Shown piece after piece: positions 4,009-34,419 of a stretch of DNA of 64,000 nt. Made by a program: the position numbers and the translations under genes. The stretch is from Bacteroides sp. (GTDB lineage: Bacteria > Bacteroidota > Bacteroidia > Bacteroidales > Bacteroidaceae), in NCBI GenBank assembly GCA_021201335.1, contig JAJQFD010000018.1, forward strand, positions 17,329 through 81,328, given 5' to 3'. The first letter of the stretch is position 1. The number at the start of each line of letters is the position of its first letter. The notes under the pieces were generated by a model. It searched no databases. It had not been told where the DNA came from and saw only the letters and a program-made list of their open reading frames with translations.

Positions 4009-4133
4009 AAGTGTTAATGTTAAATAGATAATTTTAAATATATGAAACAAATATAGCGCATATTTTTTGGATAAACACTACATTTTTATTTCACTTTCAA
4101 AAGAGTTATTAACAGAAAAGAGATAGGTAATAA

Positions 4134-11607: not shown

Positions 11608-13401
11608 ATGAATATAGAAGCGAAACTGATTACCTCCGTTGTGGATGGAATTAAATCACTTTACGGACAGGAAGTACCTGCCGCACAAGTGCAACTACAG
11701 AAAACCAAAAAAGAATTTGAAGGGCACTTAACGCTGGTTGTTTTTCCCTTTCTGAAAATATCCAAAAAAGGACCGGAGCAAACAGCGCAGGAAATCGGCG
11801 AATATCTTCAAAACAATGAACCTGCCATAGCATCCTTCAATGTAATCAAAGGATTCCTAAATCTGAGTATTGCCTCCTCTGTTTGGATTGATTTATTGAA
11901 TACAATTCATCAAAATGAGACCTATGGTATTGTGCCTGTTACGGATGCTTCACCACTGGTGATGATCGAGTATTCTTCTCCTAATACCAACAAACCGCTT
12001 CATCTGGGGCATGTACGCAATAATTTGCTGGGAAAAGCACTTGCCAATATTGTAGAAGCAAACGGTAATAAAGTGGTAAAAACGAATATTGTCAACGACC
12101 GGGGTATTCATATCTGTAAGTCTATGCTGGCTTGGCAGAAATACGGAAACGGGGAAACGCCTGAATCATCCGGGAAGAAGGGCGACCACCTGGTGGGCGA
12201 CTATTACGTAGCGTTTGATAAACATTACAAAGCCGAAGTAGCCGGATTCATGGAGAAAGGAATGACCAAAGAAGAAGCGGAAGCTGCTTCTCCCTTGATG
12301 AATGAAGCCCGCGAAATGCTGGTGAAATGGGAGGCCGGTGATTCGGAAGTCCGCTCTTTATGGTCGATGATGAATAGCTGGGTATATGCCGGATTTGATG
12401 AAACCTACCAAAAAATGGGTGTAAACTTCGATAAGATTTATTATGAATCGGAAACATACCTGGAAGGAAAAGATAAAGTATTGGAAGGACTGAAAAAAGG
12501 GTCTTTCTACCAAAAGGAAGACGGTTCTGTTTGGGCAGACCTGACAGCCGAAGGATTGGATCATAAGCTGCTTCTCCGTGCAGACGGTACTTCCGTTTAT
12601 ATGACTCAGGATATTGGTACTGCCAAACTTCGTTTCGATGACTACCCGATTAACAAAATGATTTACGTAGTAGGCAATGAACAAAACTACCATTTCCAGG
12701 TACTATCTATTCTGCTGGATAAATTAGGCTTTGAATGGGGAAAAGGGCTGGTTCACTTCTCGTATGGTATGGTGGAACTTCCGGAAGGAAAGATGAAATC
12801 ACGCGAAGGTACTGTGGTAGATGCCGACGACCTGATTGAAGAAATGGTAAAAACGGCCCGCGAGACCTCACAGGAGCTTGGCAAGCTAGATAATTGTACT
12901 CCTGAAGAGGCGGAAAACATTGCCCGCATCGTAGGATTAGGTGCTTTGAAATATTTCATCCTGAAAGTGGATGCCCGTAAAAATATGACTTTTAATCCGA
13001 AGGAATCAATAGATTTTAACGGAAACACTGGGCCTTTTATTCAATATACATACGCACGTATCCAGTCTGTACTTCGCAAAGCTGCAGAAGCAGGTATTAT
13101 CGTTCCGAACGAGTTACCCGCGAATGTAGATCTGAATGAAAAAGAAATGGGATTGGTGCAGATGGTAGCGGATTTTGCTACCATTGTTAAGCAAGCCGGA
13201 GATGATTACAGTCCGTCCATTATCGCGAATTATGTATATGACCTGGTGAAAGAATATAACCAGTTCTACCATGATTACAGTATTTTACGCGAAGAAAACC
13301 AAGATGTGAAGTTGTTCCGTATTGCTTTGTCTACTAACATATCGAAAGTAATCCACATAGGAATGGGATTGCTGGGGATTGAGGTGCCAAACAGAATGTA
13401 A
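11608..13401 (+). CDS. argS: Arginyl-tRNA synthetase
   Basis: This is an intact class I synthetase of 597 residues that charges tRNA-Arg with arginine in the cytoplasm. An N-terminal additional domain (about 1-110) precedes the catalytic core with SPNTNKPLHLGH, the HIGH-type signature at about 132. The KMSKS-type loop reads KMKSREG at about 395. The C-terminal helical anticodon-binding domain ends in GLLGIEVPNRM. Length and end fit Bacteroidetes ArgRS. It is monocistronic, with a promoter box at 11560 and a strong terminator at 13490-13530. Confidence 0.97.
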   Translation: MNIEAKLITSVVDGIKSLYGQEVPAAQVQLQKTKKEFEGHLTLVVFPFLKISKKGPEQTAQEIGEYLQNNEPAIASFNVIKGFLNLSIASSVWIDLLNTIHQNETYGIVPVTDASPLVMIEYSSPNTNKPLHLGHVRNNLLGKALANIVEANGNKVVKTNIVNDRGIHICKSMLAWQKYGNGETPESSGKKGDHLVGDYYVAFDKHYKAEVAGFMEKGMTKEEAEAASPLMNEAREMLVKWEAGDSEVRSLWSMMNSWVYAGFDETYQKMGVNFDKIYYESETYLEGKDKVLEGLKKGSFYQKEDGSVWADLTAEGLDHKLLLRADGTSVYMTQDIGTAKLRFDDYPINKMIYVVGNEQNYHFQVLSILLDKLGFEWGKGLVHFSYGMVELPEGKMKSREGTVVDADDLIEEMVKTARETSQELGKLDNCTPEEAENIARIVGLGALKYFILKVDARKNMTFNPKESIDFNGNTGPFIQYTYARIQSVLRKAAEAGIIVPNELPANVDLNEKEMGLVQMVADFATIVKQAGDDYSPSIIANYVYDLVKEYNQFYHDYSILREENQDVKLFRIALSTNISKVIHIGMGLLGIEVPNRM

Positions 13402-13489
13402 AGTTTTGAAGATAAAAACTGGTATGGTTTTTGCAATACTTTATTAAATCACAATTAACAGATAAACTACGAATATCTATATAATATCA

Positions 13490-13530
13490 GGTCGGATAGG
13501 GCTACAGGCTCTTATCCGACCTTTTTATTT
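13490..13530 (+). terminator. Rho-independent terminator of argS
   Basis: A GC-rich stem (GGTCGGATA paired with TATCCGACC) and a short loop are followed by CTTTTTATTT, 88 bp after the argS stop. This is a textbook intrinsic terminator. Confidence 0.85.
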
Positions 13531-13579
13531 CATTTTGGCAGTGCTTTACTCTCTTTCTACCAATGCATTTTCAAATCCA

Positions 13580-13727
13580 ATTTTGTTAAACAAAAAGACA
13601 TTTTTGTTAACCGCGCGACACTATTTTGTTACACGAGAAACCCCACTTTGTTAAGCAATCAACGCCATTTCGTTAACCAATCGAGGTCATCTTGTTAAGC
13701 AACAAATCTCATTTTGTCAATCCACCC
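13580..13727 (+). repeat. Degenerate tandem array, period 22 bp, seven units (core TTGTTAA)
   Basis: The core TTGTTA or a one-base variant starts at 13583, 13604, 13626, 13648, 13670, 13692 and 13714, giving spacings of 21, 22, 22, 22, 22 and 22. Cores are conserved (ATTTTGTTAA, often followed by CAA) while the other half of each unit varies. The first unit contains a dyad, TTTTGTT-A-AACAAAA. No ORF explains the spacing. It lies between the argS terminator and a large palindromic element. The repeats are too short and too variable for a CRISPR array. Confidence 0.75.
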
Positions 13728-13885
13728 ATTTCAATCAATTAATTGCTTTATTTCAACGAATAAAACGAGAGAGAAGAATAATAACCCTGTCACATTCTGT
13801 CATCTTTAGCAGGGAAAAATTGGCATACAACATATGTTATGTATATTTATTGCCCGTTACAGTAATTTAACAAGTCCGAGATAAC

Positions 13886-14525
13886 AGGTTGTCAACTTCA
13901 ACTTAATAAATTTAGCGAAGGCTAAACCAGCGGTCGACGAAGTCAAAGCCTGACAGATTTAGCCTAGGGCCAGCGTGCAAAATCAGCGCAGCCCGGGGTT
14001 TAGAATACACAAGACCGAGGAGTTCTGCAAGAACGGCATATGATACTAAATCCTTTTATATGTCGTGCCTGTAGCACTCCTTAATTATGGTGGGTTACTA
14101 CCCAGTCATATTCGAAAGATAACATTCTTTAGTAATCCAGCCAAGAATCTAAGGTCTGTTAAAAATCCCGGAGGGATTACAGGTGCATAACCACGGGATT
14201 ACATCCCGTGGAAACAGCTAACCCGACTCTACTCTCACAGCCCCGACAGGGGGTGAAGAATATATTATTGACCCACTTCGCGGCTCACGGAGATATTTCT
14301 ATATCCTATCCCGTGGGATATCCATCCCACGGTTATGCACCTGTAATCCCTACGGGATTCTTCGAGATTTTAATGTCTTCAAATCTTCCGAACATGACTG
14401 GGTTAATACCCCAAGTTGCACTCACTTTGTTCGCTAATCCTGGGCTAAATCTGTCAGGCTTTGACTCCGTCGACCATTGGTTCAGCCTTCGCTTAAAAGT
14501 AGATTTCCCTTAAGTTGACGACATT
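13886..14525 (+). repeat. 640-bp imperfect long inverted repeat (palindromic element)
   Basis: Left and right halves are reverse complements in nested blocks. The outer arms are 13886-13972 with 14433-14525 (shared core GGCTAAATCTGTCAGGCTTT on the right). The middle blocks are about 13973-14002 with 14401-14432 and about 14091-14120 with 14385-14412. The inner arms are 14164-14212 with 14305-14353 (sharing GGTTATGCACCTGTAATCCC). The centre near 14240-14252 holds a small CCCCGACAGGGGG hairpin. The left half carries an extra stretch near 14003-14090. A transcript would fold into a long branched hairpin. A shortened copy of the outer arm occurs at 21973-22011, so this is a dispersed family, perhaps REP-like or MITE-like. 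An ORF inside it is best explained as repeat sequence. Confidence 0.75.
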
Positions 14526-14600: not shown

Positions 14601-14915
14601 TTACTCCATCCTGAATATCTCCGGCAACGGAATAGAAACTGGTGAATTATCCGGGTTTGTTTCCATAATATCTGCCATATAATCCCACCATTTCTGAACA
14701 ATCGGATTCGCACCCATATCCTGCGAAGACTCTTCTCCTTTTACTTTTTGGCAGGCAAATAAAATATTGGTTTCTTTATCCCAGAAGATGGAGTAATCAT
14801 ATACACCGTTATCCGATAATAGTTTTTTCATCTCCGGCCAGATTTCACTGTGCCTTTTTTCATACTCAGCCTCACATCCGGGCTTGAGGAACATTTTAAA
14901 AGCTTCTCTTTTCAT
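14601..14915 (-). CDS. rhaM: L-rhamnose mutarotase
   Basis: This intact 104-residue protein is an L-rhamnose 1-epimerase (mutarotase), a small ferredoxin-like fold enzyme that interconverts alpha and beta anomers of L-rhamnose before isomerisation. It shows the family landmarks: FKMFLKPG near the start, YEKRHSEIWPEM (with the catalytic-region His at about 22), YSIFWDKETN, a WWDYM segment at about 76-80 and a C-terminal EIFRME. Length is exactly typical. It starts 8 bp after the end of the three-domain rhamnogalacturonan enzyme, so it is the third gene of the PL11 operon and should process rhamnose released from rhamnogalacturonan I. Confidence 0.95.
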   Translation of the reverse strand: MKREAFKMFLKPGCEAEYEKRHSEIWPEMKKLLSDNGVYDYSIFWDKETNILFACQKVKGEESSQDMGANPIVQKWWDYMADIMETNPDNSPVSIPLPEIFRME

Positions 14916-21686: not shown

Positions 21687-21780
21687 GAAGTCTGTTGATA
21701 GAGTAGCGCTACTCTCTTGCTACGATAGCCCTACTCTCTTGCTAGAGTAAGCCTACTTTCTTTCCTGAATAGCACTAGAA
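21687..21780 (+). repeat. Degenerate tandem array, period 22 bp, four to five units (core CTACTCTCTTGCTA)
   Basis: Units begin at about 21687, 21709, 21731, 21753 and 21775, all exactly 22 bp apart. The second and third are the best conserved (CTACTCTCTTGCTA), the first and fourth are degenerate and the fifth is only partial. The junction of units one and two forms a perfect dyad, GAGTAGCGCTACTC. The array sits in the 655-bp gene-free stretch after the PL22 gene. The rest of that stretch (21399-21686 and 21781-21972) shows nothing I can name. Confidence 0.7.
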
Positions 21781-21972
21781 AAGTAAATGCTTAGCCTCTG
21801 TCTGAAATCTTTATCACAACAAGTTTTTATGAAAAACAGAATTGAAACATCTTCAAAAAAGCAGGTTTAAAATTTAGAGAATCCGAAACCATGTTGTACC
21901 TTTGCAGCCAGAGAAAAGCATTTCTTTGGCATATAAAGTCATATGTCACCCGAACATGAATGAGTGTTGCTC

Positions 21973-22011
21973 GCTGACCCTGGGCTAAGTCTGTCAGGCT
22001 TTCAGCCTTCA
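21973..22011 (+). repeat. Short copy of the 14-kb palindromic element arm
   Basis: GCTGACCCTGGGCTAAGTCT with GTCAGGCTTTCAGCCTTC repeats the outer right arm of the element at 14433-14494, with about 20 central bases missing. This shows that the arm is a dispersed repeat in this genome. Confidence 0.6.
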
Positions 22012-33315: not shown

Positions 33316-33828
33316 CTATGCAGCCGGATCAATAAAGCCACCATTGTCATTACCACCGCCATCACCATTATTGTTTCCATTATCCGGATCGGTGGTTGGG
33401 TTGGTTTGGTTCTTGGCCTTATTGATTTTTTCAAAAGTTACTCCAGTGAACATTGAGCGGGTTGTTCCGTTGAATTTATTACGGGTGTAAGTAGGAGTGA
33501 AGCGTACTTTCAGATCGGTGATCTGACTGGCACTCACTTCCTCTTCCGTATCAACTCCATTTCCCGTTGAACGACAAGTTATCGTAAATGTTCCGAGTTG
33601 GTCGAGGCATACGGAACGGCTATCTAACAGGTAACCCTGTATAACGTCCATTAAATTATCTATCACATTGAGTGAATCACCCGGTGTTAAAGATGATCTT
33701 TTGGCTATCTGCATGGCCAGATCATACGCAGTGACTGGTTCTCCGACTTTTACCAGCCGGGGATGCCACTGATTTTTTCCTTCTTTGGTTTCCATTGTAC
33801 TTTGGAATGTTGTAAACAGTAAAGGCAT
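33316..33828 (-). CDS. HU-like DNA-binding protein (HU-HIG family) with Gly/Asn/Asp-rich tail
   Basis: The product (about 170 residues from the start at 33828) matches the Bacteroidetes HU-HIG family, HU-fold proteins related to histone-like HU. The family's usual opening is seen as LFTTFQSTMETKEG and WHPRLVKVGEPVTAYDLA. The core VCLDQLGTFTIT and ASQITDLKVRFTPT strands follow. The C-terminus (about 140-170) is a low-complexity tail with PDNGNNNGDGGGNDNGG. DNA binding is the likely activity but the target is unknown. The 591-bp stretch upstream, up to the nucleotidyltransferase gene, holds no other gene but contains a 23-bp-period array at 34181-34311. A terminator lies just downstream. Confidence 0.8.
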   Translation of the reverse strand: MPLLFTTFQSTMETKEGKNQWHPRLVKVGEPVTAYDLAMQIAKRSSLTPGDSLNVIDNLMDVIQGYLLDSRSVCLDQLGTFTITCRSTGNGVDTEEEVSASQITDLKVRFTPTYTRNKFNGTTRSMFTGVTFEKINKAKNQTNPTTDPDNGNNNGDGGGNDNGGFIDPAA

Positions 33829-34180
33829 AATCAAAATAAGTTTTTGGTTAAAAAATAAAATTTATTATCACACTATAATTAATTAGGAGGATGAAAGACT
33901 ATTTTTTATCATGCGCGTCTTTAATAATTCATTTCCTTATCAAATATAATGCAAATATAATATCAAAAGATAATATATAAAAGTTTTAAAGCGTATTTTT
34001 TATGATTATCTGATTAATTTAGATGAATTCTAAATAAGAATGAAAAGAGCAGGAAATGATTATATATAGTAAGGTGTAGCGTTTATAAATGAATCGGGTA
34101 CGTTAGATTAATACCTTTCTTCAAACCTTAATTTTAAAGCGTATTAGGAATCCATTAACGGAGAAAATGAATCTCCAAAG

Positions 34181-34311
34181 ATTGGCGCGGCCCCAGTCCG
34201 GGAACTTGCGCTGCGCAAATAGGTATAACTTGGGCTGCGCAACTCCGAAGACTTGGGCTGCGCAAGAAGAAGGATTGGGGCAGCACAAGTCATTCTTCTT
34301 GCGCTGCGCAA
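34181..34311 (+). repeat. Degenerate tandem array, period 22-24 bp, six units (core TTGCGCTGCGCAA)
   Basis: Unit starts are about 34181, 34205, 34229, 34252, 34274 and 34298, spaced 24, 24, 23, 22 and 24. The core CTTGCGCTGCGCAA, or CTTGGGCTGCGCAA, contains the dyad TTGCGC-T-GCGCAA. The first and fifth units are degenerate. The array is far richer in G and C than the sequence on either side. It lies between the HU-HIG and nucleotidyltransferase genes, which are divergent. The rest of the 591-bp gap is AT-rich and shows no gene. Confidence 0.75.
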
Positions 34312-34419
34312 AAGATAATACCTAAAAACTATAATTTTGATAATCTCCCCTATATTCTTAGATACAAAGTTACTCCAGATAAATTCTTTTTAATTATTTT
34401 GCAGAAAATTCAGTAGAAG

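Follow-up and report, generated by a model that had tools for sequence, protein, structure and literature searches.

Phased rows of near-palindromes between Bacteroides genes as candidate binding arrays for HU-HIG proteins

What is a row of seven short repeats, set about 22 bp apart behind an arginyl-tRNA synthetase gene, and does it stand alone? The window, i.e. the whole stretch of 64,000 nucleotides of Bacteroides sp. that was analysed, contains the row at 13583..13725 (no strand assigned), with near-palindromic units starting at 13583, 13604, 13626, 13648, 13670, 13692 and 13714. The spacings of 21, 22, 22, 22, 22 and 22 are exactly those given in the initial annotation, while of the seven TTGTTAA cores claimed there four are exact and three carry a single-base change (TTGTTAC, TCGTTAA and TTGTCAA). 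The core of this family (F1), TTGTTAA[G/C]CAA, is near the palindrome TTGTTAACAA, and the remaining half of the unit is variable. When 13402-14207 was dinucleotide-shuffled 500 times, the best lag score averaged 6.3 with a maximum of 12, and no shuffle reached the 21 of the real sequence. The left neighbour is argS (11608..13401, + strand; PF00750, PF05746, PF03485). Between this gene and the array lies a terminator-like stem-loop of argS (13489..13522, + strand; 13 pairs, 6 of them G-C, then a T run; a consensus match only), and the array is therefore probably outside the argS mRNA. The first Pfam-supported gene on the right encodes L-rhamnose mutarotase (14601..14915, - strand; PF05336) and is convergent with argS.

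At the argS loci of 29 relatives, an array was called in one only, with a different core, and the window array was not called in the other 28. The F1 core recurs elsewhere in the same genome. TTGTTAA pairs number 13 there and 0 to 2 in each of 24 other genomes of the genus, except G018 with 4; these counts stand beside a reversed-pattern control of 0 to 3 per genome, and AT-rich simple repeats inflate the matches in two genomes of other families. A phage or plasmid origin was rejected, as neither the window array nor one array of the relative G003 had a match in the phage or plasmid collections.

Three other features of argS loci were noted. A large REP-like interspersed repeat (CCACGGGAT...ATCCCGTGG) adjoins the window array (window 13911-14510, also 21966-22010); it was found again in other contigs, is about 70% similar to repeats flanking a RAYT (PF01797) gene in L229, and is a repeat system separate from the phased arrays. 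In many Bacteroidales, a gene for a canonical HU (about 90 aa) lies directly upstream of argS (L012, L019, L020, L023, L027 and others, at about 2550-2900); the window has a rhomboid gene as argS neighbour instead. Tandem arrays with a period of 41-42 occur at argS loci of Parabacteroides and Tannerella (L026, L030, L053), perhaps as a double-pitch form.

The row is not a single locus. Two further arrays were found in the window, rather than the three claimed by the initial annotation, and their cores do differ as it stated. Family F2 lies at 21700..21780 (no strand assigned; core near AGAGTAGCGCTACTCT, period 22) and family F3 at 34182..34312 (no strand assigned; core TTG[C/G]GCNGC[C/G]CAA, period 23), each with 0 of 500 shuffles reaching its score. 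The next-scoring places, near 4040, 23381 and 35036, did not have the appearance of arrays on inspection. The autocorrelation proposed in that annotation covered 91,031 noncoding bases in the source genome and gave a peak with varied cores: six-mer matches at lags 21, 22 and 23 were 140, 355 and 316, compared with a background of about 48 (sd about 9) from 20 dinucleotide-shuffled versions, and echoes appeared at lags 44 (208), 46 (206), 66 (105) and 69 (103). A fixed-threshold caller was applied to 864 kb of the source genome, consisting of the window and stretches of contigs C35, C11, C30 and C13 (the whole genome has 4,997,259 bases). It reported 37 noncoding arrays at lags 20-24, against 0, 0, 1 and 0 in four control lag bands. 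The idea of a class of element thus held.

Grouping by eye gave about 13 core families among the arrays of the source genome; most are near-palindromic, and four units are common. Each family has its own fixed pitch, and several occupy many loci. Besides F3, example cores (pitch in brackets) are AG[G/T]TATATA[A/C]CT (23), CGGTWACCG (22), CTAAGCTTA (22), GGATGTACATCC (23), TTTCACNNNNGTGAAA (22) and the TTGTTAACAA of F1 (22). Family F5 was traced across the whole genome with 36 BLAST matches, and 15 of the 18 loci examined consist of four dyads at 23, 23, 23; the others are a four-dyad locus with one spacing of 26, a three-dyad locus and one without dyads by the motif used. In G003, all 14 elements with the main core are four TGTACA dyads exactly 22 bp apart, these elements having been selected as four-site chains. 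Neither the dyad symmetry nor the common four-unit format figures in the initial annotation; nor do the HU-HIG genes discussed below. Overall, Bacteroides chromosomes carry scores of intergenic rows of near-palindromes at a pitch of 21-23 bp, and the families differ between species groups. A second array type, with period 32 (GGTTGAC..TTTTTTCTTTTATC), is found beside the F9 arrays and beside one F1 array, with the same order of parts (C11, C35, C30; e.g. L108:3414-3560).

Among relatives, lag 22 ranks highest in G003 (600 kb; 292, median 40), G012 (200 kb; 114, median 7), G083 (120 kb; 19, median 3) and Parabacteroides bouchesdurhonensis (140 kb; 27, median 4). Phocaeicola vulgatus (140 kb) has no clear lag-22 peak (lag 20, 18; lag 22, 17; median 4), and no array was found in 100 kb of E. 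coli K-12. The cores are restricted to species groups. Of 95 Bacteroides genomes, 8 have paired TGTACARAAS sites, each with 70 to 171 forward matches, and the remaining 87 have none; paired GAAACTNNAGTTTC sites occur in 14 of the 95, a set disjoint from the 8.

The four main-core arrays in 100 kb of G003 lie at the same place in G049, G165 and G073 (12/12), and 11 of these 12 orthologous arrays have four units, one G073 copy having three. Two longer or extra chains at these orthologues are one chance site and one extra array (in G165). In 14 pairwise comparisons at the four places, identity was 0.89-0.99 in the arrays, 0.57-0.91 in the flanks and 0.71-0.92 in coding sequence, where the value of 0.71 is too low since at locus A in G049 and G073 the compared coding sequence lay partly outside the BLAST match. 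The array was the most conserved part in 14 of 14 comparisons, with the narrowest margin 0.93 against 0.92. Thirteen comparisons had no gap column in the array, and the remaining one had lost exactly 22 bp. In the G012 clade, the caller placed arrays of a single core at the corresponding position of 9 out of 13 loci, and their unit numbers varied; G108 is one of the four loci that it missed, and its sites are present at the place by pair search. Judging from the conserved places and sequences within clades and the different cores between them, the arrays are old and maintained within clades, with cores that turn over between clades. It had been suggested that the period is kept while the sequence is lost, and this does not stand: each family keeps its core, F1 retains TTGTTAA[G/C]CAA while the other half varies, and whole arrays of the G003 clade are nearly unchanged between species. 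Selection on spacing was half of the matter, for the pitch is constrained but the sequence is constrained too.

With respect to genes, 26 of 30 arrays between co-directional genes are closer to the 3' end of the upstream gene (median 130 vs 354 bp, P 6e-5). A preference for convergent genes was seen in the source genome (12/36 vs 26/175), but it was not significant in the pooled data (14/57 vs 65/400, P 0.13). A link with terminators was rejected, because a terminator lies between gene and array in 12 of 50 array-gene pairs, compared with 33 of 108 array-free gene ends (within 150 bp). The array neighbours are ordinary genes, namely 68 proteins with 138 Pfam families in the source genome and 54 proteins with 120 families in G003.

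The repeated DNA-binding family among these neighbours is HU-HIG (PF18291), with 2 of 68 proteins in the source genome, and one proper HU-HIG protein together with one HU-LysM protein below the HU-HIG cut-off in G003; the link was noticed after the fact among the 138 and 120 neighbour families. In the window, the gene at 33316..33834 (- strand; PF18291, 59.9 bits vs a cut-off of 26.2) adjoins the third array, and its product is a candidate binder of F3. Both HU-HIG genes within the 864 kb adjoin arrays, F3 in the window and F9 in C35. Two more of the source genome adjoin F5 (C48) and F1, the TTGTTAA family (C47); the loci of these two had been retrieved for the arrays that they contain. Identity among the four proteins is 27-49%, and their C-termini read ...FIDPAA or FVDPAA. 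One HU-HIG gene of G003 has a TGTACA array beside it and is kept in G049, G165 and G073; since 120 of 1364 G003 genes adjoin an array, this adjacency could be due to chance.

Further HU-HIG genes were reached through protein search or the argS neighbourhood, independently of arrays. An array of six GAAGTCNNGACTTC units (22, 22, 23, 23, 23; 0/1000 shuffles) lies by the gene in a Prevotellaceae genome (L066), another (3/1000 shuffles) by the gene on a scaffold filed as phage (L357), and four GTTACTGAG-type units (21, 21, 22, the last two read by eye; 0/1000 shuffles) by the gene in Treponema saccharophilum (L360). Just upstream of HU-HIG genes are CACGGCCGTG (22, 22, 22) and TTATCANNNNTGATAA (four units by eye, only two chained by script) at two loci of Bacteroides finegoldii, L367 and L368, and TTTCACNNNNGTGAAA (22, 22, 22) in Parabacteroides distasonis (L370), the last being the core of family F12 of the source genome. 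No accepted array was found beside the genes of L356, L358, L359, L361, L362, L364, L365, L366 and L369; at L359 and L366 the score was above that of the shuffles but little or not at all above that of the control lags, and L363 offered no gap for testing. Therefore, 9 of 18 testable HU-HIG genes not reached via arrays have an adjoining array, 3 from the discovery set (the source genome and G003) and 6 of 15 from the later ones. Across ten records, 17 gaps flank HU-HIG genes and 5 of them pass, one of the five (L366) being weak, compared with 3 of 55 other gaps. The corresponding P is 0.012, or 0.041 without L366, and is slightly too small as it was computed with 16 rather than 17 HU gaps. The PF18291 assignment is Pfam-confirmed for L356, L358, L359, L360, L066 and the source-genome and G003 genes, and is based on tblastn and record names for L357 and L361-L370.

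A recurrent island of DUF4248 or DUF3987/BT4734, HU-HIG, smalltalk and amidase genes was seen at L358, L359, L361-L363, L365 and L366, and its HU-HIG genes have no accepted arrays. Cell-wall amidase, carboxypeptidase or smalltalk genes mark the islands in which six of the nine negatives lie, and the seventh island gene is the untestable L363. For this reason we suspect two HU-HIG classes, standalone and island, a split that was made after seeing the results. By it, 9 of 10 standalone genes have an array, but the class was drawn up after the results were known, and two negatives lacking annotation (L364, L369) are not counted in it. One HU-HIG gene of Bacteroides finegoldii is outside an amidase-type island, and no array was found beside it.

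HU-HIG reportedly underwent expansion in Bacteroidetes, and a profile built from five HU-HIG proteins gave matches to HU and IHF structures. HU binds DNA with little specificity and IHF recognizes single long sites, which differs from the rows of sites found here. DNA targets of HU-HIG were not found in our search of open-licence full-text papers.

With a genome-wide class at a common 21-23 bp pitch and its conservation in one clade directly established, and with standalone HU-HIG genes apparently often next to an array, we propose that the window array and its class may be binding arrays for dedicated HU-HIG proteins, relatives of the HU/IHF family, a reading for and against which we are evenly balanced. 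Each family would be paired with its own HU-HIG paralogue. Dimers would sit on the near-palindromes, nearly on one face of the helix, with 11 bp or about one turn for each subunit, and four or more dimers would lie side by side on one array. The protein binding on one DNA face suggested by the initial annotation agrees with near-palindromic sites, half-sites of 11 bp and missing RNA signatures, although the binding itself is our inference. Bending and wrapping of DNA are established for the HU and IHF families, and by analogy the bound array may be bent or wrapped into a compact nucleoprotein block. As the arrays are mostly downstream of genes, the likeliest roles would be to mark or insulate gene ends and to fold the chromosome locally, and a protein whose gene has an array beside it could control its own gene by feedback. 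More tentatively, and in our judgement somewhat short of probable, Bacteroidota may possess a private address system in which each standalone HU-HIG paralogue owns one four-dyad family, with one copy at its own gene and the rest over gene ends, while the pairs co-diversify fast between clades and even reach Spirochaetes.

Intergenic arrays more conserved than the surrounding genes imply a functional element, even without a HU-HIG partner. No description of phased arrays as a class was found in the open-licence full-text literature. The proposal joins two unexplained things: phased repeats dispersed through the chromosomes of a major gut lineage, and the HU-like HU-HIG family with its several diverged copies per genome. 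If it is true, the clades would share one geometry, four dyads set two turns apart, for a set of architectural DNA proteins that are addressed by sequence and whose codes have diverged. Under the address system, the expanded family would gain targets, and the unexplained repeat class would become a many-channel nucleoid-marking code.

An unlikely alternative is that other proteins bind the arrays, for example Lrp/AsnC-type octamers or unrelated regulators, and that HU-HIG genes are no more than frequent neighbours of arrays, as would suit the 9 of 18 testable HU-HIG genes without one. In the part of PMC2995911 consulted, the Lrp/AsnC dimer is the minimal unit, the centre-to-centre spacing is two or three helical turns, and about 100 bp are wrapped. 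Dimer sites at two-turn spacing, an octamer of four dimers and DNA wrapping all resemble the four-dyad format and the binding mode proposed for it, but the arrays are mostly at gene ends and not at promoters. Lrp relatives are also too few for about 13 array families, a single E. coli Lrp query giving none in 864 kb of the source genome and one in 600 kb of G003, and Lrp is thus unsupported as a partner. Besides HU-HIG, no protein family recurs beyond 3 of 68 or 3 of 54 neighbours.

That the arrays are non-autonomous mobile elements or minisatellites without host function, whose copies a transposase spreads in trans and whose repeats expand and contract, seems rather improbable to us. This was proposed for BrickBuilt of Porphyromonas gingivalis, a partial published precedent for the arrays; the initial annotation recognised no described system. 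In the consulted text of PMC4596501, BrickBuilt comprises 23-nt intergenic repeats with one half conserved and strain-specific repeat numbers; it has 19 dispersed copies of 1 to about 23 units, leader and tail flanks and IS5-like terminal inverted repeats, and is described as a mobile minisatellite/MITE with promoter activity. The same text mentions 41-, 23- and 22-nt repeats noted earlier in strain W83. Our arrays are likewise dispersed, intergenic tandem units of 22-23 nt, half conserved and half variable, in Bacteroidales. Flanks common to family members point the same way, with a leader and tail in F5, 84% similarity over 360 bp in F2, and one 32-bp-period flank in F9 and one F1 array. On the other hand, BrickBuilt is one family, and that text contains no set of families with a common pitch, dyad analysis or HU-HIG partner (the comparison is by description, not by sequence). 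The pitch is fixed here, and array places are kept over species with identity above coding sequence. G003 elements share no flanks except for one duplicated pair, and short inverted ends CTTGTACA...TGTACAAG were seen at them. Unit number is nearly fixed at four in the G003 clade and variable in the G012 clade, differing at one locus there as a mobile element might. Transposases were not enriched among the 68 and 54 neighbour proteins.

REP elements are intergenic palindromes mostly downstream of genes (PMC3733652; PMC1525189, as far as the consulted parts go), a position shared by our arrays (26/30). Like the arrays, REP/BIME elements are species-specific; they have a partner gene beside copies, and REPs show an excess of G-T pairing (PMC3733652). 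The arrays differ by their fixed 21-23 bp pitch and by having no such excess. RAYT transposase genes number 3 in the source genome, 1 in G012 and 0 in both G003 and G083, all of which have arrays, and RAYT was rejected since two of the four genomes have none. The arrays are close to BrickBuilt in architecture and to REP/BIME in place and habit, and are filed under neither. Of four RAYT loci, one has a 22-bp array with a AATCGACCGTATT core upstream of its RAYT gene (L229:643-735).

Finally, structured RNA or DNA hairpins, whose inverted repeats would act after transcription as those of REP/BIME elements may, are very improbable, even though arrays fold somewhat better than spacer-shuffled ones on both strands (mean z -1.5 and -1.7; 25 and 28 of 52 below -1.5) and double changes that keep the pairing occur at locus A in G073 and locus C in G117. 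With about 7 dyads per array, two chance double changes are by our estimate unsurprising, and apart from them covarying arms with G-U tolerance on the transcribed strand were not seen. The array dyads have no loop. Paired arms differ more often than chance, with 5 of 43 paired in F5 (21.5 expected), 6 of 19 in F3 (9.7 expected) and 10 of 28 at position 4 in G003 (15.7 expected), where the sites share descent and are hence not independent trials. Sense-strand mismatches show no excess of G-U (82 vs 98 A-C). The window has no Rfam family at gathering score, the arrays gave sub-threshold miRNA and other matches only, and membership in a structured-RNA family of Rfam was rejected. The RNA reading is disfavoured by the arm differences and the lack of G-U bias, and we read the array sites as putative protein sites that are asymmetric, each half-site spanning about 11 bp (ACARAASAWTK in G003). 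Elsewhere in the source genome, a FopS-family sRNA (RF04319, above gathering score) was found at L090:7815-7884.
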